Positions 1-26,815 of a stretch of 34,080 bases of DNA are shown here, piece by piece; within the stretch, counting starts at the first letter, position 1; every line of letters starts with the position of its first letter. The stretch covers positions 1-34,080 of the forward strand of contig CACXXO010000023.1 in assembly GCA_902771735.1 (NCBI GenBank). Direction: 5' to 3'. Source of the stretch: an uncultured Bacteroidota bacterium. GTDB taxonomy: Bacteria; Bacteroidota; Bacteroidia; Bacteroidales; P3. The translations under genes were made by a program, and so were the position numbers. The notes beneath the pieces were generated by a model that ran no database searches, had not been told where the DNA came from, and saw only the letters and a program-made list of their open reading frames with translations.

Positions 1-156
1 GTCCGTCAATGTGTCGGTCTCGAACATCAGCCGCCCGTCGTCGGCCGAATGGAACGCCAGCTGGTAGAGCATCGTGTCGCCCCCCGGGTTCCAGTGGAAA
101 TCAACCCTCCCCGAGAAATTCGTCCCCACACTCACCCTCGGTGCCGGGCACGGCAG
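1..156 (-). repeat. GC-rich 3' cassette, inverted copy of 12885-13041
   Basis: The reverse complement of this stretch matches 12885-13041 with only about four substitutions by eye, plus one four-base gap at the very end. The match begins at the codons for LPCPAPRV, exactly where base composition switches from AT-rich to GC-rich. The copy continues beyond the left edge, so its full length is unknown. It is a duplicated coding module shared by two otherwise diverged secreted-protein genes. Confidence 0.85.
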
Positions 157-798
157 CTTCAGAATGGGAAAAACGATACCCCACACCCCTGTCATTTCAT
201 TATTTGGTCCACTACCACATACTAAATCAAATGCATCTAACACAGGATTTAAACCGACATCATAGATATAATAGTCAGCTCCATAATGGTTTTCAAATGT
301 TGAATAAAATATTGAATCATGGACACTCACTTCGTGGTTGAAAAGGTAAATTTGGCAAGGCGAAATAGGTTGGTCTACTCCATAATCTAAAATTGTAGAA
401 TTATATTGATAAAACATGTGTTTTACAAAATGATTTCCATTGGAATGAACGGAGTCGTAGTAGAAATAACCGCTGTTTTCGTCATAGGTGCAAAGTTTGC
501 ACACCACCCCTTCTGGCAGTTCGTTGTTTGGAGAAGCTATTGCAATTCCATATACTACAGATTCTTTCTGAATTTTATTGTTGTGCCTATAAGACCAATT
601 TTCAATGGCGGTATTATTCAGTGACAACCCGGTGGTTTTATGGCGCAAAGTATCAAGTGGTAATTCAACCCACGGGTAAAATATTTCATGAAGTGTCGGG
701 TAGCTGAAACACGGATCAAGAAACGGTATTGTGTCCTGCGCCTTGAGCGGACCCGTCATGGTCATTCCAACTAATATTAGCAAAACTATTCTTTTCAT
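1..798 (-). CDS. Secreted T9SS-cargo-like protein, 3' end beyond window
   Basis: A continuous reading frame of 266 codons starts at the ATG at 798 and runs off the left edge without a stop. It opens with a signal peptide (MKRIVLLILVGMTMTG, then a cleavage-like LKAQ). Residues from about 25 to 215 are AT-rich at DNA level, Asn/Tyr-rich and unrecognised. From about residue 216 (LPCPAPRV) the DNA becomes GC-rich and encodes a fibronectin-III-like strand pattern (FHWNPGGD, LYQLAFHS). This part is almost identical to the plus-strand pseudogene at 12316-13416, which continues into a T9SS sorting domain, so the missing end here probably carries one too (inference). It lies 11 bp downstream of the gene ending at 810 and is probably co-transcribed with it. 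Function unknown; surface or secreted location is likely. Confidence 0.8.
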   Translation of the reverse strand, partial: MKRIVLLILVGMTMTGPLKAQDTIPFLDPCFSYPTLHEIFYPWVELPLDTLRHKTTGLSLNNTAIENWSYRHNNKIQKESVVYGIAIASPNNELPEGVVCKLCTYDENSGYFYYDSVHSNGNHFVKHMFYQYNSTILDYGVDQPISPCQIYLFNHEVSVHDSIFYSTFENHYGADYYIYDVGLNPVLDAFDLVCGSGPNNEMTGVWGIVFPILKLPCPAPRVSVGTNFSGRVDFHWNPGGDTMLYQLAFHSADDGRLMFETDTLTD

Positions 799-809
799 AT
801 ATAAGTGTA

Positions 810-2162
810 TTAATATGTATGGCAAACAGGAAGCCACTTTGCGGCATAAGTAGAAAGAACTGGCGTAACGAGTGTATTGGTCACAGGGATGAATCTGGGA
901 GGATTAGAAGCAGGCCCTGTCGTCAAATCGGGGATTCTATCCATTCTTACTTGTGCTTCGAAAGGACAGCCAAGATTTGTATGGGTCGGTATATATTGGA
1001 GATACGCTTTCTCCATCCCTACAGACACGAAATTGTCCGAATTGTATATATCAATCGAACGGTAAAGGTTTCCATGTGAAAAATAGGTTTCATCAGTGAA
1101 GTATGAATAGTTGTTGTAAGGTTCAAGATAATAAAAAAGTGGGTCATCCGTAAACGCAACAAAAGGTTCTTGAAGCAAAACGAGTTTTTTTAACCTTGAG
1201 GAGTATGCCATCTCCGCCGTTTCCAGTTTGTCGATAATCTGAGTTTCATGGGAATTGATGTTCAAAGGCATTGGCAATGCTTCCGTATCAATAACTCTAA
1301 GTCTTTTAAAGAAAGTTTGAGACGTGCCAGTCTCTACGTGAACATATGACATGGCAATCAACCCATCATCGAGAACCACCGAACGGGTGCGGGCATTGAT
1401 TTCATTAGAGGATAAAGAAAAGTAATAAAATGAATCAAACAAGGTTGTGCTCGCAATGTCCTCGGGTTGGTCTGAGATTCTGACTATAGGCCTTGCATTT
1501 GATCCCTGAAAAAAAGTCCCCACCAAAACCACCTTGGTACCAGTATATAACACATCATCGTAAATTTCTTCATATGGCATATACTCAATCTTATACATTT
1601 TAAATGTTGGTAATGTGGATAGAATATCGAAGATTTCCATAATAACAGGATCATCGGCAATGGTGAAACTTTTGCCAAGGGCAACTACCTTGTGCACCCT
1701 GTTATGTTGGTAAACTACGAGCCGACGGAAATAACTTGCTGCTGGGATTTCAAAAATGTGGGGAGTGATATTTCCCAGCATAAACTGATTTAATGGGAAA
1801 TAACCCACAATGCCACAAAACGTTTCCGGTATGGTCGAAAGATTTTTCGAGCCACAAAAAAACACTGTGTCATTCAATATTTTAAAGTCTGTGATTGCAT
1901 ATTCCCTTGGCAAAGGATCACTAAAGATTGTGGGAGCGACAAAACCCGAGGGACTGTAGGGTCCTAAAAATTGATAAAAATCCGTGCAAACGAACCGGTA
2001 TCCATCAGAATAAACCAAAGAAACCACATCCTTGTCATTCCAATTTCGGACCAAAACATTCTGTTCAGTTATAAACTCCAACTCGGCACTGTTATAATTT
2101 TGCGCCGAAGAAAAAAACGGCAGAAAAAACAGAAATGACAAAACAGTAAATATTCTTTTCAT
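810..2162 (-). CDS. Secreted protein of unknown function, 450 aa
   Basis: The product starts with a clear signal peptide (MKRIFTVLSFLFFLPFFSS, then AQ). The mature part is rich in short hydrophobic strands separated by polar turns, with recurring shapes such as VVSLVYSDG, FKILNDTVFFCGS, VVALGK, KVVLVGTFF and LVLLQEP. This pattern suggests a beta-propeller-like or other all-beta fold (inference). No T9SS sorting domain is visible: the protein ends in AKWLPVCHTY. The first 12 bases and about 340 upstream bases match, inverted, the region before the pseudogene at 12316. This gene therefore sits between a shared promoter block and the cargo gene starting at 798. DNA is clearly more AT-rich than the housekeeping genes nearby. 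I do not recognise the family. Confidence 0.8.
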   Translation of the reverse strand: MKRIFTVLSFLFFLPFFSSAQNYNSAELEFITEQNVLVRNWNDKDVVSLVYSDGYRFVCTDFYQFLGPYSPSGFVAPTIFSDPLPREYAITDFKILNDTVFFCGSKNLSTIPETFCGIVGYFPLNQFMLGNITPHIFEIPAASYFRRLVVYQHNRVHKVVALGKSFTIADDPVIMEIFDILSTLPTFKMYKIEYMPYEEIYDDVLYTGTKVVLVGTFFQGSNARPIVRISDQPEDIASTTLFDSFYYFSLSSNEINARTRSVVLDDGLIAMSYVHVETGTSQTFFKRLRVIDTEALPMPLNINSHETQIIDKLETAEMAYSSRLKKLVLLQEPFVAFTDDPLFYYLEPYNNYSYFTDETYFSHGNLYRSIDIYNSDNFVSVGMEKAYLQYIPTHTNLGCPFEAQVRMDRIPDLTTGPASNPPRFIPVTNTLVTPVLSTYAAKWLPVCHTY

Positions 2163-2500
2163 AATTTTATTTGTTAATGGCGTTTGTATTTTTAATAACA
2201 GATTGATAGAAAGATAATTGCATTAATCATCAAGTGTTATTCTATTCAGCAAAGTAAAAAAAAATTTTTGAATTTTGCAAATTAATTTTTCGTCGCCGAG
2301 CCAAAATTGGAAATCAGCAGGTTACAAGCATGAAAATGCACTTAAAGCATTGATTTTGAGTCTTATGGTTGATAAATAAATATATAACTACCTGATAATT
2401 AGTACCAACTCCGTATCAACTCCTACCCAACTCCCTACCATCTCCCTACCAACTCCTACCGTGGTAGGAGTTGGTAGGGTGTTGGTAGGTGGATGGTAAG
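2151..2500 (-). repeat. Upstream block copy A, inverted relative to 11985-12327
   Basis: Read on the minus strand, this block matches 11985-12327 on the plus strand over almost its whole length. It contains the palindromic element, an AT-rich promoter region, a leader of about 80 bases and the first codons ATGAAAAGAATA. Differences are scattered point changes and short indels, so both copies derive from one ancestor. The two copies face each other about 9.5 kb apart. Confidence 0.85.
2250..2281 (-). promoter_or_regulatory. Bacteroidota-type promoter for the gene at 2162
   Basis: On the minus strand there is a -33 box TTTG (2281-2278), a 20-base spacer and a -7 box TTACTTTG (2257-2250). This matches the consensus TTTG-N19-21-TAnnTTTG with one mismatch. 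The same arrangement with the same spacing is kept in the inverted copy at 12197-12228. The leader to the ATG is about 80 bases. Confidence 0.6.
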
Positions 2501-2505
2501 GTTTT
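2384..2505. repeat. Palindromic 11-bp-unit element, copy 1
   Basis: The element begins with CTGATAATTAGTACC and continues as imperfect units of about 11 bp (AACTCCGTATC, AACTCCTACCC, AACTCCCTACC, ATCTCCCTACC). It then mirrors itself around a GT centre at 2461-2462. Perfect 17-bp arms lie at 2444-2460 and 2463-2479; after a three-base mismatch the pairing resumes for six more bases (2435-2440 with 2483-2488). Transcribed RNA from either strand would form a long hairpin. Related copies lie at 11984-12095, 21234-21345 and 26690-26815. Confidence 0.8.
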
Positions 2506-2610
2506 CGGATGGTTTTTCCCTCTCTTTGGAATGACTGGGTGGCAGGCTGGGTTGTAGGTTGAAGAAAGTTTTTTTTAGTGTATGTATACTATATTTTGTT
2601 TTTTGTCGTT

Positions 2611-2619
2611 AAGGAGAGG
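2611..2619 (+). promoter_or_regulatory. Strong Shine-Dalgarno site fixing the mltD start
   Basis: AAGGAGAGG lies just before the ATG at 2621, with GGAG five bases from the start codon. Such a clear site is unusual in Bacteroidota. It selects this ATG over the in-frame one 13 codons upstream, whose extra residues look like translated leader. Confidence 0.7.
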
Positions 2620-2620
2620 T

Positions 2621-3889
2621 ATGAATATTAGGAAATATATATATATTGCAGTTGTTGTGATGGCTTTCGGTGTGGTGCCGGCGGAGGGGCAGACGGAGGC
2701 GGAGATGATGACGAGGCGCTATACAGAGGCTTACGACAGCTTGATCAACAGTTTTTATTTGAGGCAGTTTTCGCACAGCCGGTTGCTGAGCAGCCGGGAG
2801 TTGGACATGGAGGAGTTTGACGCGCTGCCGGACTCGGTGATAGCGGGGCGGCTTGGGGCGTTGCACACGGTGATTCCGATGACGTTCAACAGCGAGGTGC
2901 GCTCGTATATAAGGTTCTATTTGAAGTATATGTCGCGCCGGTTGGACGTGATGTTGAGTCTGGGGCAGTATTACCACCCGATGTTCGAGGATGCGCTGAG
3001 CCGCTACGGGGTGCCGGAGGAGTTGAAGTACCTGACGATTGTGGAGAGCGCGATGAATCCGATGGCAACGTCGAGGGTGGGTGCCGCTGGACTGTGGCAG
3101 TTCATGTACAGCACGGGCAAGATTTATGACCTTGAGGTGAACTCGGTGGTTGACGAGCGGAGGGATGTGTACAAGTCGACCTATGCGGCCGCCCATTTCC
3201 TGAGCGACCTGCACCGTGTGTTCGACGACTGGACGCTGGCCATTGCGGCTTACAACTGCGGCCCGGGCAATATCAACAAGGCTATCGCCCGCTCGGGTGG
3301 CAAGCGCGATTTCTGGGAGATATACTATTTCCTGCCGCGTGAGACCCGCGGCTATATTCCGGCGTTTATCGCGGTGACGTATGTGATGAACTATTATCGT
3401 GAGCACGGGTTGCGCCCAGTGGAGGTGAAGGTGCCAGTGCGAACCGACACGGTGATGGTGGCGAGCGATGTGTTGCTGAACTATGTGGAGGAGTATACCG
3501 GCATCGGGGAGGAGGAACTGAGGACGTTGAATCCGCAGTATCGCGCAGACTATATACCGGGATCGACGGGACGCTATTCCATCTGCCTGCCGACGACGCG
3601 GATGGAGCTATTCATAGCCCATCAGGATTCTATCTATGCGCGCACGCAGGACAGCCTGTCGCGGCGTCCGATGACGGTGGAGCCGGTCAAGGGGAAGGGT
3701 GAAAGAGGAAGAGTGAAAGGGGAGAAGAAGGGCGGCGGCGGGAATGCACGCTACCACACGGTGAAAAAGGGCGAGACTTTGTCGTCGGTGGCCCGCAAGT
3801 ATGGTCTCACGGTACAAAGGCTGAAGAAGCTGAACGGCCTGAAGCGGGATCAGATCAATGTGGGTCAGCGTTTAAGAATCAAGAATTAA
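2621..3889 (+). CDS. mltD: MltD-like membrane-bound lytic transglycosylase with LysM
   Basis: This enzyme cleaves the glycan strands of peptidoglycan in the periplasm to give 1,6-anhydromuropeptides. A signal sequence covers residues 1-23 (VVVMAFGVVPAEG). The transglycosylase domain spans roughly 120-250: the catalytic glutamate is E142 in TIVESAMNP, followed by GAAGLWQFM and AAYNCGPGN, all typical of the MltD/Slt family. A degenerate LysM-like stretch lies near 290-340. A clear C-terminal LysM covers about 375-422 (YHTVKKGETLSSVA to INVGQRLRIKN), after a Lys/Gly-rich low-complexity linker. At 422 aa it is a usual size for Bacteroidota MltD proteins. It heads a three-gene cluster with a divisome protein and an NlpC/P60 enzyme. 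Its last codons and stop fall in a heptamer array. Confidence 0.93.
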   Translation: MNIRKYIYIAVVVMAFGVVPAEGQTEAEMMTRRYTEAYDSLINSFYLRQFSHSRLLSSRELDMEEFDALPDSVIAGRLGALHTVIPMTFNSEVRSYIRFYLKYMSRRLDVMLSLGQYYHPMFEDALSRYGVPEELKYLTIVESAMNPMATSRVGAAGLWQFMYSTGKIYDLEVNSVVDERRDVYKSTYAAAHFLSDLHRVFDDWTLAIAAYNCGPGNINKAIARSGGKRDFWEIYYFLPRETRGYIPAFIAVTYVMNYYREHGLRPVEVKVPVRTDTVMVASDVLLNYVEEYTGIGEEELRTLNPQYRADYIPGSTGRYSICLPTTRMELFIAHQDSIYARTQDSLSRRPMTVEPVKGKGERGRVKGEKKGGGGNARYHTVKKGETLSSVARKYGLTVQRLKKLNGLKRDQINVGQRLRIKN

Positions 3890-3894
3890 GAATA
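3874..3894 (+). repeat. Heptamer array at the mltD stop
   Basis: Three 7-base units AAGAATC, AAGAATT and AAGAATA run over the last codons and the TAA of mltD and into the nine-base gap before the next gene. It is related to the AATTGAR arrays elsewhere in the window. Confidence 0.6.
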
Positions 3895-3898
3895 GGGG

Positions 3899-4186
3899 AT
3901 GGATTTCAAGAAAATATTGAAGATAAAGGGTTTGAAGTACTGGGTAGCGACGGCAGTGTTCGCGGTGGTGATTCTGTTTATCGACCCGAACAATCTGCTG
4001 GTGACTATGAAGTTGGGGCGGCAGGTGAGGCAGCTGCACGAAGAGGAACGAGAGCTGGCGGAGGCGATTGTGCAGGATAGCGTGAACAATGCCGAACTGA
4101 AGGGCAATCTGGATGCGATAGAGCACTATGGCCGTGAGAATTATTACATGAAGCGTGCCGATGAGGATATTTTTGTGATCAAGTAA
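3899..4186 (+). CDS. divIC: FtsB/DivIC-family septum formation initiator
   Basis: A 95-aa bitopic membrane protein with one transmembrane segment at about residues 15-30 (WVATAVFAVVILFI) followed by a short coiled coil (about 38-60, RQVRQLHEEERELAEAI). The C-terminal motif AIEHYGRENYYMKRADEDIFVIK-like ending is typical of DivIC/FtsB. These proteins form a complex with FtsL and FtsQ/DivIB and connect cell division to septal wall synthesis. Length and topology fit. It follows mltD by nine bases and precedes an NlpC/P60 lipoprotein, which agrees with a cell-wall role. Whether it is FtsB or DivIC by name is a matter of convention in this phylum. Confidence 0.88.
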   Translation: MDFKKILKIKGLKYWVATAVFAVVILFIDPNNLLVTMKLGRQVRQLHEEERELAEAIVQDSVNNAELKGNLDAIEHYGRENYYMKRADEDIFVIK

Positions 4187-4212
4187 GGGGGAGGGGAGAG
4201 TTAAGAATTCAG

Positions 4213-4818
4213 ATGAAGAGAATGCTAAAGGGACGATATATATTGTTTTTGTGTACCGTGAGTATGCTGCTGACGGGGTGCGATGCGTTGAAGAGTTTCA
4301 TGTCGCGCGACCTCGAAGAGGAGGATTTCATCATCGGCCAGTTGTATGTTGACGAGATGGTGAACGAGACTCCCTATATAGCGCAGCGCGTGGAGCGGGG
4401 AACGGTGGCCACGGGCACCAACCCCTTAGGCTTGACCTATAGTGCCGACGACAATATGGCTCTCTACGAGGCGGTCAATTCGTGGCTCGGTGTTCCTTAC
4501 AAGTATGGCGGTACCGACCGCAAGGGCATCGATTGCTCGGCCTTTGTAGGGACGATATACAAGGAGGTATACGGTGTGACGCTGAACCGCACGGCCAACG
4601 ATATGCTGAGGGATGTGAAACTGATAGCCAAATCGCAGTTGAAAGAGGGTGATTTGGTGTTTTTTACCAACTCGAAGGGGAAGGTGTCGCATGTGGGCAT
4701 CTACCTGAAGGAAGATCTTTTCGCCCATGCATCGACGAGCAACGGGGTGAGCGTTAGTCGCTTAGACAACAAGTACTGGGAGAAGCACTTTTATAAGGGC
4801 GGCCGGGTAAAGAGATAG
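4213..4818 (+). CDS. NlpC/P60 family lipoprotein, peptidoglycan endopeptidase
   Basis: The product has a lipoprotein signal with lipobox LLTGC, the lipidated cysteine being C23, so it should be anchored in the outer or inner membrane facing the periplasm. The NlpC/P60 papain-like domain occupies about residues 82-200. The catalytic cysteine is C108 in GIDCSAFV, the histidine H160 in GKVSHVGIYL, and the third polar position H172 in FAHAST. Family members hydrolyse gamma-D-Glu to diamino-acid bonds in stem peptides. It is the last gene of the mltD cluster; its stop is only three bases from the stop of the convergent gene at 4822, and no terminator hairpin is visible between them. Confidence 0.93.
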   Translation: MKRMLKGRYILFLCTVSMLLTGCDALKSFMSRDLEEEDFIIGQLYVDEMVNETPYIAQRVERGTVATGTNPLGLTYSADDNMALYEAVNSWLGVPYKYGGTDRKGIDCSAFVGTIYKEVYGVTLNRTANDMLRDVKLIAKSQLKEGDLVFFTNSKGKVSHVGIYLKEDLFAHASTSNGVSVSRLDNKYWEKHFYKGGRVKR

Positions 4819-4821
4819 GTT

Positions 4822-5130
4822 TTATTTGGTATTTGTGTATCCTAATTGGAGAAGGAGGGAGACCACCTTCTCTTTGTTATCACCTTGGATGATGATTTCT
4901 CCATCCTTGGCCGAGCCGCCGGTGCCGCATTTGGTTTTCAACTGTTTGGCAAGGGCCTGGAAGTCGTCGTCGGAGCCCACGAATCCACGGACCAACGTGA
5001 CCGTTTTGCCGCCGCGGTGGTGATGCTCGATGCTGACACGGAGTTTCTGGCGCCCGGGAGCGAGGGTCGATATTTCGGGCTCGGAGTCGTTGTAGTTGAA
5101 GTCGGGGTTGGTGGAGTAGACGATATTCAT
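4822..5130 (-). CDS. SUI1/eIF1-family translation factor (YciH-like)
   Basis: A 102-aa protein whose C-terminal two thirds match the SUI1 fold: GGKTVTLVRGFVG, then a helix with LAKQLKTKCGTGGSAKDGEIIIQGD and a final VVSLLLQLGY. This is the conserved signature of eIF1 and bacterial YciH. Bacterial members influence start-site discrimination on the 30S subunit; the exact role in Bacteroidota is not established. The start at 5130 was chosen because it gives a family-sized protein and because ATGA overlaps the stop of the upstream kinase gene (four bases), implying translational coupling. An earlier in-frame ATG would only add residues read from the kinase gene. Confidence 0.9.
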   Translation of the reverse strand: MNIVYSTNPDFNYNDSEPEISTLAPGRQKLRVSIEHHHRGGKTVTLVRGFVGSDDDFQALAKQLKTKCGTGGSAKDGEIIIQGDNKEKVVSLLLQLGYTNTK

Positions 5131-6008
5131 TTTCGGCCGAAGATTTTGATGGACTTTGGATGGTTGACGAAATGGAGCACATCGCCGAGGTTCTCGCCTT
5201 CGCCGTCGATGTTGACCCACTTGTGGACGTTACCTTCGATAAGGATTTCCTTGGCGCGGAACATTTCGGCATGCTGCGAGTGGTCGAGGAGGTTCATGAA
5301 GGCCATGGGTGCGGTGATGAGGATATGGTCGAGCGGGATTTTGTCGATGATGGAGATGTCGATAAGACCGTCGCTGAGGTTGGCTTTTGGGGCGACGGAG
5401 AGGTTGTAGCCGAACTGGCGGCCGTTGGCGATGGCGATGAACCAGGCGCTGCGTTCGAGGGTGCGACCGTCGACGGTGAGTCGGTAGGCGTTGTTTTTGT
5501 AGGAGGCGTATTCGCGGAGTATGAGGTTGGTATAGGCCGCGAAACCGCGGGTCTTGGCGGCTTTCATCAGTCGGGCGATATAGGCGTCGAAGCCTACACC
5601 TGCTGCGTTGACGGAGATGTAGCGGTCGTTGATGACGATGGAATCGATGGCGTGCTCGTTTTGTTGGTTGAGGAGCTTGACGGCGGAAGCGGGGGTGAGG
5701 GGTATCTTGAGCGAGCGAGCCAAGCCATTGCCGCTGCCGCAGGGGACGATGCCCATGGTGACGCCGGAGTCCTTGAGACCCTGGGCCACATCGTTGACGC
5801 TGCCGTCGCCCCCGACGGCAACAACACAGTCGATACCCTGATCGGCAGCTTGGCGTGCTATCTCGGTGCCGTGGTGGATGTGCTCGGTATAGCGGATGCT
5901 ATAGTCGAAGAGGTCCTGATTGAGGTTGTCCTTGACGACGGTCTCTATTTTCTTTTGTTTGCCTACACCCGACACGGGGTTGACGACGAAGAGTGCTTTC
6001 TTTTTCAT
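5127..6008 (-). CDS. Diacylglycerol kinase-family lipid kinase (YegS/DgkB type)
   Basis: The 293-aa product shows the diacylglycerol kinase catalytic domain: N-terminal FVVNPVSGVGK, then the nucleotide-binding loop AVGGDGSVNDV (about residue 66) and PCGSGNGLARSL, followed by the all-beta C-terminal domain. Members phosphorylate diacylglycerol, or related lipids, with ATP at the inner membrane. The start ATG overlaps the stop of the sulfatase-fold gene by four bases (ATGA), and its own stop overlaps the SUI1 start in the same way. The tight link to an LtaS-like phosphotransferase suggests recycling of diacylglycerol released by that enzyme, as DgkB does in Firmicutes (inference). The lipid substrate cannot be read from sequence. 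Confidence 0.92.
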   Translation of the reverse strand: MKKKALFVVNPVSGVGKQKKIETVVKDNLNQDLFDYSIRYTEHIHHGTEIARQAADQGIDCVVAVGGDGSVNDVAQGLKDSGVTMGIVPCGSGNGLARSLKIPLTPASAVKLLNQQNEHAIDSIVINDRYISVNAAGVGFDAYIARLMKAAKTRGFAAYTNLILREYASYKNNAYRLTVDGRTLERSAWFIAIANGRQFGYNLSVAPKANLSDGLIDISIIDKIPLDHILITAPMAFMNLLDHSQHAEMFRAKEILIEGNVHKWVNIDGEGENLGDVLHFVNHPKSIKIFGRK

Positions 6009-7891
6009 TTGGCAATGAGTTTGTTGTTCATGACGCGTAGGAAATATTGTTGCACGACGGCTTTGAGGAAGCGGATGTTTTCAGCGCTGCCAATTTCCTG
6101 ACTGCCGCAGAGGATGGTTATATCATGCTGCTTGGGGTTGCGTGGATTGTTGCTGACCATGCAGAAATAGTCGTTACCGAAATAGACCTGCCAGCCACAG
6201 TCGATGTCGTTCTGGCCGAAGGCGACGACGGGGTCGTCGAAGCCGAGGAAGCGGACGAGCGATGGGAAGAGGTCGGTCTGTTGAACGATGATGTCGTTGA
6301 CATTACCGATATTGTTTTGTGGGTCGTAGACAATCATGGGGATGCGATAGGAGCCGTCATAGTCGAGATATTCGGGACTGAGTCCGGGACCGCTGTGGTC
6401 GGCTGTGATGATGAAGAGTGTATTGTCGAACCAGGGCTGCTTCCTGGCCTCGTCGAAGAATTTCCGCAGCGAGTTGTCCATATACTCGACGCATTTCAGG
6501 ATGGGATGTTTGCCTTCAAGAAAGCGGTCTTTGTATTTCTCCGGAAGAGGGAAGGGGTCGTGGGAGGTGACGGTGAAGACGGTAGTGAGGAAAGGCTCTT
6601 TGAACGTGCTGGTGTGACGGACGACATACTGCAGGAATGGTTCGTCGAAGACCCCCCACACATGGTCGAAGTCTTCCTCGCGTGATTTGCTGTCAGCCTT
6701 GAATTCGTTGAGGCCGAGGTATTCATGGAATCCGATGCGGTTGCACACTTTGTCGAAGTCCATCACGCCGTTGTGGCTACCGTGGAAGAAGGCGGTGTGG
6801 TAGCCGTGGCGGTTGAGGACGGTGGGAATGCCGGCGATTGAGTCGTTGCGATAGGTGCAGTTGACGAACGGGACGTTCATCAGAGTGGGAATGCCGGTGA
6901 GGAGGGCTGTGATGCCTTCGATGGAACGTTTTCCGTTGGCACGACCTTGGAAGACGGTGCTGTGCCTTGCCAGCGAGTCGAGGAACGGTGTGCGGGTATC
7001 GGCGTTGGGTTGGCTGTTGTAGCATCCGAGGTATTCCTGTCCGAGGCTTTCGACGATGATGAGGACGATGTTCTTCGGTTGAGGCGGGAGGGTGTCGACA
7101 GCGGATGAGTCGGTGATGGCAGTTCCTATTGCGCTGATTTCAGGGTTGAACAGGCTGTCGGCCTCTTTCTGCGGCATGTATTCATGGGCTTCGAGTTGGG
7201 GTTGGAAGAGAGTACGGAAGATGTTGTATCCGCTGTTGCTCACCATGGGGATATTCTTCGGTTGGCAGTAGTTGGCGGCATCTGTGAGCTGGATGAAGTG
7301 GCCAAAACCACCGCGCAAGAGGAACCATGCTACAAGAAGACCTGCACCGAGGCCTATCCATTCGTTGGACATTACGGTGTACTGGTTTCGTGGTGCCAGG
7401 CGGATGCGGTGGTTGAGGAGGAGGAAAGCAACGACGATGATAATGCCGAAAACCCAGGCATACCAGTAGTTGACCATGAAGTGGGGAATGAGTTTGTCCA
7501 TTGGACCGCTGTTGCCGAGGTAGGTGAATATCTCATTTGACAACATGCGATAAGTGTATTGGAAGTAGGCCGAGTCGGCACCTTTTGCCACAAGCACCAC
7601 AAGCCATGGAAGGATATAGAGCGTCTCACAGACAATGCGATACCAGCGTTTCCATCGTGCTTCTGTTGGCAGGAGCATCAGGACGATGAATGGCAGCAAG
7701 ATTGTACATACCGTGGCTGCGCCAAAGACAATGTTGCCCCACAAGATACCCATCCACTCGCCAAAGCCGTCGGGACGGAAGATGTGGCTGTTGGCCACAA
7801 TGAAGAGCACCTGCATGGCAAGCAGCGAACAGAAAGCCAGCAGTAATTTGTGGAGGAGATAGATATAGGTGTTGCTTCCTTTATGTTCCAT
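6005..7891 (-). CDS. LtaS-like sulfatase-fold phosphotransferase, membrane-bound
   Basis: The N-terminal 240 residues contain about five transmembrane segments. From about residue 275 there is an alkaline phosphatase/sulfatase-fold periplasmic domain: NIVLIIVESLGQEYLG holds the first metal ligand, RANGKRSIEGI holds the likely nucleophile (a Ser or neighbouring residue, not proven), and TADHSGPG the later metal ligands. Layout and length (628 aa) resemble LtaS and MdoB/OpgB, which move glycerol-phosphate or phosphoethanolamine from phospholipids to glycans or lipids. I took the ATG at 7891 rather than the TTG at 7903, which lies in a heptamer-like spacer. The downstream kinase gene overlaps by four bases. 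Exact donor and acceptor are unknown. Confidence 0.87.
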   Translation of the reverse strand: MEHKGSNTYIYLLHKLLLAFCSLLAMQVLFIVANSHIFRPDGFGEWMGILWGNIVFGAATVCTILLPFIVLMLLPTEARWKRWYRIVCETLYILPWLVVLVAKGADSAYFQYTYRMLSNEIFTYLGNSGPMDKLIPHFMVNYWYAWVFGIIIVVAFLLLNHRIRLAPRNQYTVMSNEWIGLGAGLLVAWFLLRGGFGHFIQLTDAANYCQPKNIPMVSNSGYNIFRTLFQPQLEAHEYMPQKEADSLFNPEISAIGTAITDSSAVDTLPPQPKNIVLIIVESLGQEYLGCYNSQPNADTRTPFLDSLARHSTVFQGRANGKRSIEGITALLTGIPTLMNVPFVNCTYRNDSIAGIPTVLNRHGYHTAFFHGSHNGVMDFDKVCNRIGFHEYLGLNEFKADSKSREEDFDHVWGVFDEPFLQYVVRHTSTFKEPFLTTVFTVTSHDPFPLPEKYKDRFLEGKHPILKCVEYMDNSLRKFFDEARKQPWFDNTLFIITADHSGPGLSPEYLDYDGSYRIPMIVYDPQNNIGNVNDIIVQQTDLFPSLVRFLGFDDPVVAFGQNDIDCGWQVYFGNDYFCMVSNNPRNPKQHDITILCGSQEIGSAENIRFLKAVVQQYFLRVMNNKLIAK

Positions 7892-7914
7892 TACAATTCT
7901 CAATTTTTATTATT

Positions 7915-8865
7915 TTACGGGCGCCATCCTGAGGTTTCGAGAATTTTGCGACTGTCGGTCTCGGCAAGGAGTTGACTCATTGTGGCGTTGCTTTTCTTCA
8001 TATATTGCTTGACGATTTGCCATCCAATATAGGCATTGGTTCGTGGAGCCGAACCGTCGCCGAAAGCATTGGTTTTGGGGGCGTCGTCGAGTAGGTTGTG
8101 CAGTTTTGTCATGTCGGTGCTGAAAAGAACATCATTCTGTATCAGCCATCCCCACACATTTTCTACATTCTCCTCCATCCAGTCAAGTTGTTCTTTGCTG
8201 TAGCGCAGTTTGATGGTGTCGGGGGTGGAGGGAAGCACTTGGTCAAGGAAATATAGCGTCTTGCCTTCTGCAATGGCGTGGTCAAGGAAGGTGAGGTCGC
8301 CGTCGGGTAGTAGAATATGGTGGCGAACGGCGGTGGCCATCACATCGGAAGTGATGTATTCGCGGCGGCAGAGGCGTGTGATGTAAGTCGGTACACCAAA
8401 CTGCTGCATTTCCTTGCTGTGTCCAAGGGTGTAGCAGTCGATGGAAATGGCTAAATCGGTCATGTTGCAGAAGACCCGGTTGGCATAGTTCCCCATGTCG
8501 GCAGTGATGAGGGTGTAGAAATTGCGGTAGTCGATTTCTGGACAGAGTTCGCGTGTTTTGTCCATAGCGTCTCCAAGAGCTTGCTCGAGCCACGAGAGGT
8601 CGTGGTAGAGGCTGTCGGTGATATGGTAGATGAGATTCACAATTTCATCTCTCCTGAAATCGGCCAAAGCCATCATGAAATTTGGATCGTCAGGATGGTA
8701 GTTGAGGAGTGGTGTTTGAAAGTCGGCATCGGTGCCGTGCGAATGGTCGTCGGGATCGGCAAAGAGGAACTGCTCAAAACGCATTATCTTTACCGGTTCG
8801 GCCTTGTGTCCACAACCGGCGAAAGCCAGCAATGCCGGCATCAAGTATAGGAAGAATCGTTTCAT
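7915..8865 (-). CDS. gldB: GldB-like gliding-motility/T9SS lipoprotein
   Basis: A 316-aa lipoprotein with lipobox LAFAGC (C18). The body matches the GldB pattern: an early MRFEQFLF segment, a central DMGNYANRVFCNMTDLAISIDCYLG-type region, REYITSDVMATAV, and near the end APRTNAYIGWQIVKQYM, which corresponds to the GldB C-terminal motif. GldB is needed for gliding motility in Flavobacterium and occurs with type IX secretion genes; its biochemical role is not known. The gene start overlaps the upstream stop by one base (TAATG). T9SS cargo genes elsewhere in the window make a secretion-related role plausible here, but no other gld or por gene is present in the window. Confidence 0.82.
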   Translation of the reverse strand: MKRFFLYLMPALLAFAGCGHKAEPVKIMRFEQFLFADPDDHSHGTDADFQTPLLNYHPDDPNFMMALADFRRDEIVNLIYHITDSLYHDLSWLEQALGDAMDKTRELCPEIDYRNFYTLITADMGNYANRVFCNMTDLAISIDCYTLGHSKEMQQFGVPTYITRLCRREYITSDVMATAVRHHILLPDGDLTFLDHAIAEGKTLYFLDQVLPSTPDTIKLRYSKEQLDWMEENVENVWGWLIQNDVLFSTDMTKLHNLLDDAPKTNAFGDGSAPRTNAYIGWQIVKQYMKKSNATMSQLLAETDSRKILETSGWRP

Positions 8866-9881
8866 TAATTGGTCAGTTTGAAGTATTTCTCCAATACGCG
8901 CAGCCCGATATAGCGTTCGCGCCTCAGGTCGCGGAATTGGTCGACATAGCGGTTGGCGTTCTTCGCTATTTCTTTAGCCTCTTCAGGGTGACTACTGTAG
9001 TAGTCAAGCTGCTGCTCGAGGTCGCTGAAGTCGTCTTTCACCAAAATATAGTGTACCCCAGGCTCAAGGCGTTCTTCCATGAACCAAGACTCGCATGTCG
9101 GTTTGGGCATGACAGCCAGCGAGTTGCTCGACATTACCCACCGCAGGTTTGACGCCACATCGTTGCCCTCGAGGGCCATGATGTAGCGGTAGTCAAGATG
9201 CTCGTAGAGAGACAGGCGCGGTGCCGCATTGCCAGAGTTGGGTATTTTCTCTTCGGCAAAAGGGCTCCCTCCCGAAAGTGTGTTGGCTACGTCGACCCGC
9301 GGGTTGCCCGCAAAAGTGTTGCAGAACAGCAGTCGGTTGGGACGCTGGCCTATGTAGCCGCGGAAAATGGCTCGGTCGGTCTTCGACTCGAACGGACGCC
9401 GGTCGCGCAGGAAAACATAGTGGCGGCATTTGTCCAGTTTGAGTAGCACCCCATTACTGTTGTCCTCGCTCCCTTGGGCATGGGTGTCGTTGCTCAGGCT
9501 TCGGCTCTTCACGATAGAAGGGTAGGGGGGGATGTCGCGCACATCGCCAAAAACATAGTTCCACCGCAAATCCGGGTCGAACCATTGCAGCAGTTCTCGA
9601 CTGTCGTAGTAGTATGTGCTTCCGTGGTTGCGCTTCTGCAACCCTCCAATCTTTTGTGCCCCGGGGCCGAGACTCCTGTGTTCGTTGAAGCGGCAGTAGT
9701 AATCCACCCGGTCCTCGATGTAGGCCTCGTCATACAGGCGGCGGCATATCTCCATCTCCCTCTTCAACCTGCTGCGGAACAACACGTCTGGCAATATGTC
9801 TCTAAAGCCGGCCTTGACATAGTAGCCGGCTTTAGAGTTTTTGCCACTGTGCAGTATGTAGCCTATGGTTGCGTTGGCCAT
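8865..9881 (-). CDS. Glycosyltransferase family 90 (LpsA/CAP10-like)
   Basis: The 338-aa protein carries the GT90 core: CRHYVFLRDRRPFESK and AIFRGYIGQRPNR in the middle, then HLDYRYIMALEGNDVASNLRW, SSNSLAVMPKPTCESWFME and GVHYILVKDDFSDL, closing with helices. The second block is the typical nucleotide-sugar binding part of CAP10-type enzymes. Bacterial members such as LpsA add sugars to lipopolysaccharide; the sugar here is unknown. No signal peptide is seen, so it acts on the cytoplasmic side. It lies six bases after the DUF349 gene and overlaps the gldB start by one base (TAATG), so it is part of the envelope operon. Confidence 0.85.
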   Translation of the reverse strand: MANATIGYILHSGKNSKAGYYVKAGFRDILPDVLFRSRLKREMEICRRLYDEAYIEDRVDYYCRFNEHRSLGPGAQKIGGLQKRNHGSTYYYDSRELLQWFDPDLRWNYVFGDVRDIPPYPSIVKSRSLSNDTHAQGSEDNSNGVLLKLDKCRHYVFLRDRRPFESKTDRAIFRGYIGQRPNRLLFCNTFAGNPRVDVANTLSGGSPFAEEKIPNSGNAAPRLSLYEHLDYRYIMALEGNDVASNLRWVMSSNSLAVMPKPTCESWFMEERLEPGVHYILVKDDFSDLEQQLDYYSSHPEEAKEIAKNANRYVDQFRDLRRERYIGLRVLEKYFKLTN

Positions 9882-9887
9882 CGGGAG

Positions 9888-11819
9888 TTATTCTTCGCTT
9901 TTAGACGCTTCTTTCTCAGCCTTCTCGGCCTCGTTAAGGATGCGCAGCTTGGCCTGCATCAACGCTATCTGCTGGCGGGCACCCTGCATCTTCTTCTCAA
10001 ATTCCTGCTTCAACAGGTCGGCCTGCTTAGAGTTCGCCAAGAATCCAAGATTGTTTTCCCAGAGGTTCAGGTCGCTCTTCAGCTTCTCTATTCGCTCCAT
10101 CAGCTCCTGCTTCTCGTTGTTGACAAACTTGCGCGCATCGCCTGCGTTTCGTATGCGCTCCCGGTAGGCTGTCTCTTCCGCCTCGCGAGCACTTATTTTC
10201 AATTGCTCGAAAATCCTGTCAATTTCCCCGCGGAACTCCTTGTGCAGGCGGTCTTTCTCGGCCATGGGCACATAGCCTACCTCGGCCCAGCGGCGCTGGA
10301 ATTCCTTGATGGCGGCCAGGTTCTCCTCGCGGTCCTCGCCGAACTGGTGAGCCTTCAACTCGCTGAGTATTGCCTCTTTCTGAGCCAGATTCTCGCTCTC
10401 TGAGGTGCGACGCTCTGCGAAGAACTCACTCTTCTTGGCGAAGAATTCATCGCATGCCTTGCGGAAGCGCTGCCAGATTTTCTCGCTCACCTTGCGGCTG
10501 GTGGTGCCGATGGATTTCCATTCTTGCTGAAGCTCGAGCAGTTCTTCGGTGGCCTTCTTCCAGTCCTCGCGCTTGGCGATGGCTTCGGCCTTGAGGCAGA
10601 GGTCCACCTTCTTCTGGTAGTTGGCCTCCTGCTCGTCGCGTATGGCGCCGAAGTATTCTTTCTTCTCGCTGTAATGCTTGTCAATCATGCCCTTGAACTT
10701 GGTCCATATCTCCTCGTTCACTTCGCGTGGCACGGGGCCGATGGTCTTCCACACCTTCAGCAGCTCGTCGAGGGCGGCGGTGGTGTCGTTCCAATCCTTG
10801 GTGCTCTCGGGACGCTTCTCGGTGAGTTCGGTGGCCTTGTCGACAAGGGCCTGCTTGGCCAGAAGGTTATTGTCGAGCTCTTCCTTGCGCTGGTCGTAGT
10901 ATTCCTTGCGTCGCTCGTCAATCTGGTTGGCGGCGTTGCAAAAGCGTTGCCAGATCTCCTCGTTCTGTTCGACAGGCACGGGCCCCACCTCTTTCCAGCG
11001 GGCGCGCAGTTCCTGCAGACCCTTGAAAGCTTTCGTTACAGACGGTTCCATGATGAGTTCCTCGGCACTCTCGCAGAGTTTTATCTTTTCCTCGAGGTTG
11101 CGCTTCTGGTCGAGGGCACGCAGTTCGCGGTTGATTTTCAGCTTGGCAAAGAACTGCTCAATCTGGAAGTGGTAGTTCTGCCACAAGTCGTTCATCTGCT
11201 CGCGGGGCACTTCGCCGATGGCTTTCCAGCGCTCTTGGATGCTGTTGAACTTGTCCATCGCGGTGCGCACCTGCTCCTCCTCGGAGTCAATCAGCTGGCG
11301 CATCTCCTCGATGAGTGCCTGCTTGGCCTCGAGGTTGCGTTTCTTCTGCTCCTCGAGCTCTTCTATATGTTTCTGACGCATGGCTCGGTACTGGTCTTGC
11401 AGGCGGTGCATCTCCTCGGCCACGGCGTCGTTCTCGTTCTGATAGTCGTCTTTGTTTCCACCCTCGGCAATGAACTTCTCGAAGGCTGCATTCTGCACCT
11501 CGCGGTTCAACTCGTTGAAGCGGTTGCGGATGGCAGCGACACGGTTCTTGATTTTCTGTACATCCATGCCCAACAGTTCTTTCATGGCAGCCACCAGCTC
11601 CTCGCGGGTGCTGTTGCTGTAGTCGGGCTCGGGCTCGGCCTCCTCAACGGGAGCCTCTTGGGTTTCAGGTGCCTCCGTGGTTTCCGGAGCTTCTGGCATC
11701 ACCGGCGTCTCCAGTGTTGCGGGTTCGTTGTTAGGGATTTCAGTCACCTCTTCGGCGACGGGTTCAGTGTTCGGCAGAGCCTCATTGACGGCATTCTGCA
11801 GTTCGTTGGTTTCTTCCAT
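9888..11819 (-). CDS. DUF349 repeat protein, 643 aa
   Basis: After an acidic, Pro/Thr/Glu-rich and probably disordered N-terminus (about residues 1-75), the protein is a long series of charged helices. DUF349 units recur about every 70 residues and are easily recognised by their W-K-x-[IV]-G-x-[VTS]-P-R/V signature: RWKAIGEVPREQ, RWKEVGPVPVEQ, VWKTIGPVPREV, EWKSIGTTSRKV and RWAEVGYVPMAE, each followed by an IW-x-[RK]F-like segment. The family is common in Bacteroidota and Actinobacteria; its function is not established. No signal or membrane segment is visible, so it is cytoplasmic. It is the first gene of the minus-strand operon down to 4822 and has its own promoter. Confidence 0.92.
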   Translation of the reverse strand: MEETNELQNAVNEALPNTEPVAEEVTEIPNNEPATLETPVMPEAPETTEAPETQEAPVEEAEPEPDYSNSTREELVAAMKELLGMDVQKIKNRVAAIRNRFNELNREVQNAAFEKFIAEGGNKDDYQNENDAVAEEMHRLQDQYRAMRQKHIEELEEQKKRNLEAKQALIEEMRQLIDSEEEQVRTAMDKFNSIQERWKAIGEVPREQMNDLWQNYHFQIEQFFAKLKINRELRALDQKRNLEEKIKLCESAEELIMEPSVTKAFKGLQELRARWKEVGPVPVEQNEEIWQRFCNAANQIDERRKEYYDQRKEELDNNLLAKQALVDKATELTEKRPESTKDWNDTTAALDELLKVWKTIGPVPREVNEEIWTKFKGMIDKHYSEKKEYFGAIRDEQEANYQKKVDLCLKAEAIAKREDWKKATEELLELQQEWKSIGTTSRKVSEKIWQRFRKACDEFFAKKSEFFAERRTSESENLAQKEAILSELKAHQFGEDREENLAAIKEFQRRWAEVGYVPMAEKDRLHKEFRGEIDRIFEQLKISAREAEETAYRERIRNAGDARKFVNNEKQELMERIEKLKSDLNLWENNLGFLANSKQADLLKQEFEKKMQGARQQIALMQAKLRILNEAEKAEKEASKSEE

Positions 11820-11904
11820 CTTGATGGTTTTTGTTGATAGAACTACTTCTGTAATAATGTTTTACAGGTTAATAATCACGCTCTCTTCTCATGGAGAGAG
11901 AATG

Positions 11905-11912
11905 CAAAGATA
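11905..11912 (-). promoter_or_regulatory. -7 promoter box for the DUF349 operon
   Basis: TATCTTTG on the minus strand (11912-11905) is an exact match to the Bacteroidota -7 consensus TAnnTTTG. It lies 85 bases before the ATG at 11819. A matching -33 TTTG at the usual spacing is not evident; an A/T tract occupies that place. A small inverted repeat, CTCTC with GAGAG, follows in the leader (11881-11900). Confidence 0.5.
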
Positions 11913-11983
11913 CGTTTTTTTTTTGACTTTGCAGGATTTTTTCTCCCTTTAACTTTTTATATGAATCATACCTTCACCGTTTC

Positions 11984-12095
11984 TACCCCCTACCAACCCC
12001 CTACCATCTCCCACCGTGGTAGGAGTTGGTAGGGAGATGGTACGGACTTGGGTAGGAGTTGATACGGAGTTGGTACTAATTATCAGGTAGTTATA
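11984..12095. repeat. Palindromic 11-bp-unit element, copy 2
   Basis: This is the inverse orientation of copy 1, ending with GGTACTAATTATCAGGTAG. The core CTCCCACC-GT-GGTAGGAG has one mismatch. A second pairing is also possible: TACCATCTCCC (12002-12012) is the exact complement of GGGAGATGGTA (12032-12042), enclosing the right core arm. Core and outer hairpins cannot form together. Confidence 0.78.
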
Positions 12096-12327
12096 TATTT
12101 ATTTATCAACCATAAGACTCAAAATCAATGCTTTAAGTGCATTTTTATGCTTGTAACACGCTGATTTCCAATTTTGGCTTGGCGACGAAAAATTAATTTG
12201 CAAAATACAAAAATTTTTTTTTACTTTGCTGAATAGAATAACCCATGATAATTCATGCAATTATCTTTCTATCAATCTGTTATTAAAAATACAAACGCCA
12301 TTAACAAATAAAATTATGAAAAGAATA
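11985..12327 (+). repeat. Upstream block copy B, inverted relative to 2151-2500
   Basis: This block contains the palindromic element, the AT-rich promoter and leader, and the first 12 coding bases, in the same order as copy A on the other strand. It explains the whole 496-base interval between the divergent genes at 11819 and 12316 apart from the DUF349 leader and promoter (11820-11950). Confidence 0.85.
12197..12228 (+). promoter_or_regulatory. Bacteroidota-type promoter for the gene at 12316
   Basis: TTTG at 12197-12200, a 20-base spacer and TTACTTTG at 12221-12228 match the -33/-7 consensus with one mismatch. Boxes and spacing are the same as in copy A (2250-2281), which supports their being functional. 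Confidence 0.6.
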
Positions 12328-13416
12328 GTTTTGCTAATAATCGTTGGAATGTCCATGGCGGGGTCACCAATTATTTCAACAGGTGCTTCCTCCACAAACA
12401 TTATTTCCAACAGACACAGTGTTATATTATCAATTGGTAGTGCGTGATTGGGATAGTAAATATATAACTCTACACAATAGATATAAAGTATCTTATGGCG
12501 CTACTGTCTGCGGAATTGCGATAACGGCGGATTCGTGTTTTTTGGCACAGGAGGTTTACTACGATTCCATTAATACAGAAAGTGACATTTACAGAAAAAA
12601 AATGTACTACGACTATAACACTATAAATAATTATATTAATTATTCTTATGTTTCTTCAGGGATTGTGCCGTGCTACATATTCCCTTTTGACAAGGTTACG
12701 ATTTGCGACACAACACTTTATACAAAAATAGAAGTGGTAAACAGGCATTCCGAAACCCCTTTTGACGGTTGTGATATTTATATTGTTAGTTTAGCGGATA
12801 CTTCCTATATAGGTGATGGAAATCTCTGTTTTGCCACCCTTCACTGGTCTGGGTCTGCGGTTGGGGGTGGTATATTCCCTGTTTTTCAGCTGCCGTGCCC
12901 GGCGCCGAGGGTGAGGGTTGGGACGAATTTCTCGGGGAGGGTTGAATTCCACTGGAACCCGGGGGGCGACACGATGCTCTACCAGCTGGCGTTCCATTCG
13001 GCCGACGACGGGCGGCTGATGTTCGAGACCGACACATTGACGGCTACGAGGTGCGGGTGCGCAAGGCCTGCGACTACACGGGGGCCCCGATTGCCAACCC
13101 CTTGGTGTGGAGCGACTGGAGCGAGCCGCGGACGTTCAACTACATGCACCGCATCGAGGGCATCGAGGACATTGAGAGCTTCGGTCCGCAGTTCACGTTG
13201 TCGCCCAACCCAGCGAAGGGGATGGTGACGGTGGAGGGCGCGGCGGAGGTCGAGCGGGTGGAGATTGTGGACATGGAGGGCCGTGTGGTGATTGGGGAGA
13301 GGCCGTTGGCGGGGTCGCCGTCCACGGTAGACATCAGCCACCTGGCGCCGGGCGTCTACCTCGTGCGCCTCAGCGGGCCGATAGGGTCGGCCACGAGGAA
13401 GCTGGTGGTGGAGTGA
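12316..13416 (+). pseudogene. T9SS cargo gene broken by two frameshifts
   Basis: The gene starts like its paralogue at 798 (MKRIVLLIIVGMSMAG), but the frame closes at 12447. Adding up homologous segments requires two changes. First, the paralogue has GGG where this copy has GGGG at 12360-12363, a +1 shift. The second frame then runs through a diverged middle (VVRDWDSKYIT, TVCGIAITADSC) into the shared cassette LPCPAPRVRVGTNFSG. Second, near 13040 this copy reads TTGACGGCTAC where the paralogue has TTGACGGAC: loss of one ACGG of a tandem pair shifts back to the first frame. The restored frame encodes an Fn3-like end and a T9SS type A sorting domain (FTLSPNPAKGMV to APGVYLVRLSG). Either a pseudogene, a switchable gene, or sequencing error. 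Confidence 0.78.
12885..13041 (+). repeat. GC-rich 3' cassette, second copy
   Basis: This is the inverted match of positions 1-156. It encodes the LPCPAPRV to DTLT part of the cargo protein and ends at the ACGG deletion. The boundary coincides with a switch from AT-rich to GC-rich DNA inside one gene. Confidence 0.85.
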
Positions 13417-21225: not shown

Positions 21226-21233
21226 ATTTATAA

Positions 21234-21345
21234 CTAACTGATACTTAGCACCAACTCCGTATCAACACCGTCCCAACTCCGTACCAACTCCGAATGAACT
21301 CCGACCACGGTCGGAGATGATACGGACAAGGTACGGCGGTGGTAG
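21234..21345. repeat. Palindromic 11-bp-unit element, copy 3
   Basis: It begins with CTGATACTTAGCACC and continues with 11-base units (AACTCCGTATC, AACACCGTCCC, AACTCCGTACC, AACTCCGAATG). The core is CTCCGACC-AC-GGTCGGAG (21299-21316), a perfect palindrome; the units then run in mirrored form. It follows a terminator and precedes rdgB, and fills most of the 252-base gap there. The rest (21346-21423) is AT-rich and probably holds the rdgB promoter, though no clean consensus was found. Confidence 0.78.
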
Positions 21346-21423
21346 GTTTTTGGCGTTAATTTTATTTCAATCCGGCACAATATAAACGGCTTTTTAATGT
21401 TATTATAGTAAAAAAGAACTATT

Positions 21424-26689: not shown

Positions 26690-26815
26690 CGCCGACGTAC
26701 CATCGGCGTATCTTCGCCGTATCATCTCCGACCGTGGTCGGAGTTCACTCGGAGATGATACGGAGTTGGGACGGTGTTGATACGGTGTTGGTGCTAAGTA
26801 TCAAGCTGTTAGAAA
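26690..26815. repeat. Palindromic 11-bp-unit element, copy 4
   Basis: The inverse orientation of copy 3, ending TTGGTGCTAAGTATCAAG. The core CTCCGACC-GT-GGTCGGAG (26726-26743) is a perfect hairpin. Alternatively CCGTATCATCTCCGA (26717-26731) pairs perfectly with TCGGAGATGATACGG (26749-26763), a 15-base stem that excludes the core. It lies between the convergent ends of cls and the outer-membrane-protein operon; the rest of that 281-base gap holds only the terminator at 26884-26919. Confidence 0.8.

Follow-up and report, generated by a model that had tools for sequence, protein, structure and literature searches.

We analysed a window of 34,080 bp, the complete contig C23 (CACXXO010000023.1) from the 2.29-Mb, 37-contig assembly of an uncultured Bacteroidota bacterium (GCA_902771735.1; genome G000 below), which carries two inverted loci of a gene family whose products appear to be cargo of the type IX secretion system (T9SS). 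At the left locus, gene A (1-798, minus strand) follows gene B (810-2162, minus strand), while the right locus carries gene C (12316-13416, plus strand; called C23R in comparisons between copies). We consider it very likely that gene conversion between fixed ends swaps the middles of this dispersed T9SS cargo family, which was ancestrally a two-gene unit of B and A. Across copies and strains, the ends showed low silent divergence, the middles were diverged, the switches between them were sharp, one locus carried different middles in different strains, and one middle was found at two loci. An initial annotation of the window had proposed recombinational exchange of middles between fixed ends on the basis of two copies. 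The proposal is supported by the other middles found at both loci of a second strain, by the middle present at two loci, by breaks at the cassette edge and by the same pattern in a further pair of genomes, with the qualifications weighed below.

The two loci and their counterparts in other strains

The loci share three blocks in inverted orientation. The 5' blocks (2148-2492, minus strand, and 11986-12330, plus strand) match over 345 nt at 95% identity. The left one holds a G-rich repeat, an AT-rich promoter region and the start of gene B, with strong copies on contigs C26, C21 and C27 of G000; the right one is also present at 12142-12486 of C29, a contig from a second strain. Since C29 shows the inverted 5' blocks as well, they are safe as an observation. 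The signal-peptide starts (752-814 and 12300-12362) match over 63 nt at 83% identity and the starts of the 3' cassette (3-187 and 12859-13043) over 185 nt at 91%. The inverted promoter blocks of the initial annotation are thus present, but the left block precedes gene B, an open reading frame of 450 amino acids, rather than gene A, which starts 11 bases behind gene B and runs off the contig inside the cassette; at the right locus gene C comes immediately after the 5' block. Gene B, whose homologues stand upstream of A in genomes G046 and G107, on contig C27 and elsewhere, forms the ancestral two-gene unit together with gene A, which it precedes. Gene A itself had been taken for a 798-nt gene; this did not hold, as C23 ends at base 1, within the cassette. 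What remains in the window is the first 156 nt of the cassette (1-156, minus strand; start of an FN3-like domain, 64% GC) and the open frame at 157-798 (minus strand), comprising the signal-peptide start (about 724-798) and an AT-rich variable middle of type 1, which is 58-66% identical at the nucleotide level to the other full-length middle types.

The closest comparison came from contig 29 of genome G013 (RUG12008; CACYJU010000029.1; C29), which is collinear with positions 2-12362 of the window and identical to its backbone at 9237 of 9350 aligned sites (98.8%). The versions of these genes that belong to G013 itself are about 67-78% identical, so that C29 is probably misbinned and derived from a strain of the same species as the window, or else a piece that was transferred; in both cases it serves as a close reference here. 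At the left locus, identity between C29 and the window fell just past the stop codon of gene B and returned at the cassette. Divergence at silent sites (dS) was 1.26 in the left middle, against 0.107 in the adjacent gene B and 0.027-0.107 in four other genes. At the right locus (C29R), the middle of C29 was that of the copy on G000 contig C27, with a single mismatch in the 583 nt from the switch point to the cassette edge and another single mismatch in the 156 nt of cassette past that edge. The shared middle stands behind different signal peptides in the two copies. The switch falls inside a shared stretch of six bases, CCGTTT, which is too short for a k-mer assembly chimera, and the dS of 0.016 between the two copies comes from two silent differences immediately left of the switch. 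Different middles at the same locus between strains, as the exchange proposal had predicted, were therefore found at both of the two loci within a backbone of 98.8% identity.

The pattern of exchange is independently repeated, as judged from the assembled contigs, by G046 and G107, a pair from the same genus. G046 carries six B-A units; five were aligned, the sixth (on C5), which is more distant, being left out. The ends of the five were highly identical and their insides formed a patchwork, in which identical runs exceeded all 1000 permutations in nine of ten pairs and were reached by 1 of 1000 in the tenth. When the unit on G107 contig C26 was compared with that at the same locus on G046 contig C35, the flank beyond the unit was 87-99% identical in all 14 windows, while inside the unit identity dropped to 54-89% over the 13 windows spanning 151-2100; in these inner windows the syntenic copy was the sole best match in three, tied in two and was beaten in eight. 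Likewise, G107 contig C31 lies at the locus of G046 contig C9, with 81-97% identity over nine flanking windows, yet windows inside the unit were closer to the non-syntenic C35 than to the syntenic C9 in 14 of 20 cases (5 the reverse, 1 tie). An exact 96-nt stretch of gene B is common to four contig ends in G107, the same kind of assembly break as in G000.

A search with protein A matched in 4 of 99 genomes, including the window's own, and strongly in G000 and G013 only, the same two genomes (of 120) that were found when cassette DNA was searched across the genus. A tally with an A profile (119 of 119 genus genomes) was not used; most of the matches listed covered only the sorting-domain part. 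Of 198 relatives searched, 74 gave a match to gene B; 73 of these belong to the genus, and the one outside it matched at an E-value of 8.8e-4. Many species of the genus have A preceded by B: by hand count among the matches listed, B stood upstream of A on the same strand and within 700 bp in at least 14 genomes (G000, G004, G011, G013, G018, G023, G046, G102, G104, G106, G107, G115, G121 and G143). Among 177 pattern matches in viral contigs there was no relative.

Copies, ends and middles

The initial annotation had suggested looking for copies beyond the two noted, and G000 does contain them: the cassette query gave nine matches, of which one is complete and one weak, the others being three 5' halves and four 3' parts; the 5' block gave 78 matches, of which five are strong copies and the others occurrences of the short G-rich repeat. 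With one joined copy and four broken parts each on the 5' and 3' sides, the assembly suggests a total of about five genes. Eight of the 74 contig ends lie within the family: C23, C21, C26 and C32 start in it, C27 and C30 end in it, and the 158-kb contig C2 both starts and ends in a tail of the same 3' cassette. Two copies in this genome of five strong 5' blocks, C21 and C27-B, are frameshifted and lie in doubtful assembly. Gene B on contig C27 (7784-9120) is spread over three frames, with two frameshifts near G and T runs that reflect real decay, switching or sequence error.

Composition, silent divergence and break points all agreed with the initial picture of shared ends around an AT-rich, diverged middle, with a change of composition and identity at the cassette edge. 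GC content, measured in six copies, was 37-39% in the middles and 64-66% in the cassette parts, compared with 53% for the window overall. In 13 of 15 copy pairs, dS in the middle was at least 1.26 or not computable, the close pairs being C27-C29R and C21-C23R; at the cassette start it was 0.030-0.134 in all 15. The 3' parts of the cassette were 93-97% identical between copies at the nucleotide level. Near-identity at silent sites goes beyond what selection on the protein accounts for, so that the ends must have been exchanged or copied recently. In 13 of 15 pairs identity switched from 50-64% to 95-98%, with the best break 1-18 nt ahead of the cassette edge and matched in none of 500 permutations per pair; the exchange proposal had anticipated break points at this edge. 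C27 and C29R broke at the 5' edge instead (0 of 500 permutations). Between gene A and the gene at 12316, the jump in identity at the cassette edge had a chi-squared value of 101, which none of 500 permutations reached. What the data did not bear out was the notion of unrelated middle domains: motifs such as YYDS, PC, FP and LPCPA recur in every copy aligned, and the middles are, on alignment, diverged homologues of one kind. Nonsynonymous divergence (dN) between C21 and C23R, two frameshifted copies, exceeded dS over 139 codons (0.096 and 0.064), which may hint at diversifying selection.

Mechanism, rival explanations and the right-hand copy

The combination of sharp switches with low silent divergence on one side, the same segment at different loci and different segments at one locus is what is expected of intragenic gene conversion. 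In the model we favor, the fixed ends would be the 5' block (G-rich repeat, promoter region, signal peptide and the codons for QDTIPF) and the 3' cassette (FN3-like and sorting domains). Homologous recombination, that is gene conversion and presumably RecA-dependent, would start or end in these shared blocks, and the middle of the exported protein would be replaced by that of another copy, from the same genome or from another strain. We infer rather than observe the enzymes and the rate of exchange, the use of both ends as crossover sites in one event, and the benefit, which would be variation of a surface or secreted binding protein. A bolder version is doubtful: that rumen-type Bacteroidetes, which are not known as pathogens, possess a dedicated system of frequent variation, in which B-A middles are shuffled at such a pace that many forms exist per population and the G-rich palindromic repeat upstream of the promoter is the recombination start.

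Several points weigh against exchange of middles, the evidence for which comes from assembled contigs. The comparison strain is a single contig, apparently misbinned; a single middle was seen at two loci; and no donor was found for the A middle in the window or for the left middle of C29. The C21 and C27-B copies carry frameshifts, real or not, and C21 and C23R lack a strong break (18 of 500 permutations reach it). Finally, gene C, the window's right-hand gene, is a doubtful assembly. Annotated as a gene at 12316-13416, it proved to have a broken frame, with 47 and 55 nt missing relative to other copies. Its signal-peptide start (12316-12362, plus strand) is directly followed by the first gap; its middle (12363-12885, plus strand; type 3, like the C21 copy, 92% over 139 codons) is open in its own frame; and its 3' cassette (12886-13416, plus strand; FN3-like domain and type A sorting domain) has the second gap after 13042, the remainder of the cassette being open. 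Contig C26 ends exactly at 12362 and C21 exactly at 13042, and the window's left end and the end of C27 lie at most 3 bases from the 13042 breakpoint. Because both gaps sit exactly at the ends of other contigs, gene C is probably a copy stitched together by the assembler. The joint at 12363-13043 may be a stitched or wrong join, or a real rearrangement between repeats. A decayed gene is less likely than stitching, given the open middle and the position of both gaps.

The question then is whether assembly or binning artefact, with repeats leading assemblers to join the wrong pieces, could explain the whole pattern. The contig ends within the family and the two gaps of gene C speak for it, as does the separation of the two flanks of gene C: in all five genomes examined (G001, G002, G014, G022 and G013's own contigs), the counterparts of about 2700-11900 on its left and of about 13450 onward on its right sit on different contigs. 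The joints that matter, however, namely C29 right, C29 left, C23 left and C27, are open and gap-free in gene A and have only short shared stretches at the switch, and the pattern recurs in G046 and G107. We regard an overall artefact as most unlikely. It is somewhat easier, although still improbable, to envisage concerted evolution of the ends only, with gene conversion homogenising promoter, signal peptide and cassette while the middles stay put and diverge by mutation and selection. Such a process fits the low silent divergence of the ends and the homology of the middles; it does not fit one middle at two loci behind different signal peptides, left-locus middles with a dS of 1.26 between backbones 98.8% alike, or the 14 of 20 windows in which the G107 C31 unit is closer to a non-syntenic than to its syntenic copy.

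Two further explanations have next to nothing left to them. In the first, purifying selection acts on the sorting domain and the signal peptide while the middle drifts freely. This view draws on the sorting domain being a known export signal and on the FN3-like part perhaps being structural, but silent sites in the ends are near-identical too (dS 0.03-0.13, against at least 1.26), and identity switches abruptly, within a few bases. Hardly more credible is an invertible segment or site-specific switch using the inverted 345-nt blocks, which lie 9.5 kb apart: each block already faces its own gene, the arrangement is the same in both assemblies, and a scan of ten proteins encoded between and next to the copies revealed no recombinase. 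With repeats at both outer ends, a 10-kb inversion would go unseen in these data.

Known systems, gene products and neighboring features

Gene conversion of middles between fixed ends has partial counterparts in other bacteria. According to one report, the KLIKK proteases of Tannerella forsythia are encoded by six T9SS cargo genes in two clusters, whose inner parts belong to different protease families; an AT-rich tract lies before each gene, and shared motifs spoiled genome assembly (PMC4404884). The family described here resembles them, as they are described there, in having several T9SS cargo genes per genome with near-identical C-terminal sorting domains, differing inner parts, AT-rich upstream tracts and assembly trouble (PMC4404884). 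It differs in having one diverged homologous kind of middle without known domain, dispersed loci, a partner gene B before A, a C-terminus of RKLVVE rather than KLIKK, and exchange at one locus seen between close strains. For 23 genomes of Porphyromonas gingivalis, a second report describes T9SS-exported and other surface proteins that vary by domain rearrangement and allelic exchange, in a mosaic that does not follow the strain tree and involves named virulence proteins of a cultured pathogen (PMC5266723). There too, recombination of domains or alleles among strains varies T9SS-exported surface proteins (PMC5266723). Unlike in P. gingivalis, our family is limited to a genus of uncultured relatives, has fixed 5' and 3' blocks and is reassorted between dispersed loci. 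In the pilE/pilS antigenic variation of Neisseria, gene conversion likewise replaces a variable inner segment between conserved flanks from other copies, acting on one expression site with promoterless silent donors; no single expression site or promoterless donors were apparent among the assembled copies here, and the 5' block is present wherever the 5' end of a copy is assembled.

A literature search whose coverage left out most subscription journals found no such exchange in T9SS cargo except in PMC5266723; PMC5714932 and PMC11868660 have the relevant terms in their reference lists only. The family is set apart from the Tannerella and Porphyromonas systems by the one diverged kind of middle, the two-gene unit, the shared promoter blocks and the dispersed loci. 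If our reading is true, uncultured gut Bacteroidetes diversify an exported protein by swapping middles between dispersed loci with fixed ends, as has been reported in oral pathogens. The pressure behind this would then come from host antibodies, from phages or from ligands that change. In metagenomes, families of this kind cause broken and mis-stitched assemblies exactly where the biology lies.

The type A sorting domain was recognized at window positions 13051-13416 by PF18962 (45.3 bits, cut-off 27) and TIGR04183 (45.7 bits, cut-off 23). SprA, the sole T9SS component searched, was found on G000 contig C11 (TIGR04189; 2394 bits, cut-off 200) and in none of 14 control genomes. The signal peptide (MKRIVLLILVGMTMTGPLKA-Q) appeared by eye to be of typical Sec type. 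Variation of an exported protein is the putative function, judging by the sorting domain, by the presence of SprA and by where the variation lies. The FN3 assignment was weak: the profile of A gave 11 weak matches among solved structures, the best being leptin-receptor chains (E-value 0.0033) within the FN3 part, and PF00041 matched a G046 relative at an E-value of 0.21. Within the FN3-like part of the cassette, positions 13110-13130 encode a WSDWSEP stretch, which we take to resemble the cytokine-receptor WSXWS box.

Pfam scans of A and its relatives gave no protease domain, and Pfam and NCBIfam scans gave no family for gene B or for gene A as present in the window. Gene B looks like a beta-propeller, by eye only, and a profile search against solved structures gave 0 matches for it. 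AlphaFold2 models had a mean predicted local distance difference test score (pLDDT) of 30.2 for gene A, from 3 sequences, and 35.1 for gene B, from 2 sequences.

The upstream region resembles what we take to be the Bacteroidetes -33/-7 promoter (TTTG, then TAnnTTTG). The G-rich palindromic repeat (GGTAGGAGTTGGTAGGG...), with an 11-base period, occurs in the window at 2402-2505, 11986-12076, 21226-21351 and 26695-26815; it lies immediately upstream at each 5' block and, among the matches listed, at no fewer than 35 further places in the genome, and it is common in G002 as well. Its midpoint fell inside a stop-free frame of at least 150 codons at 5 of 24 loci checked, so the repeat lies mostly between genes. 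Between the two cargo loci, positions 7915-8865 encode the gliding-motility lipoprotein GldB (PF25594, 224.8 bits). The adjacent genes at 26948-28294 and 28341-29732 are diverged tandem duplicates (direct repeats D3 and D4, 71-72% identity, spacing 1384).

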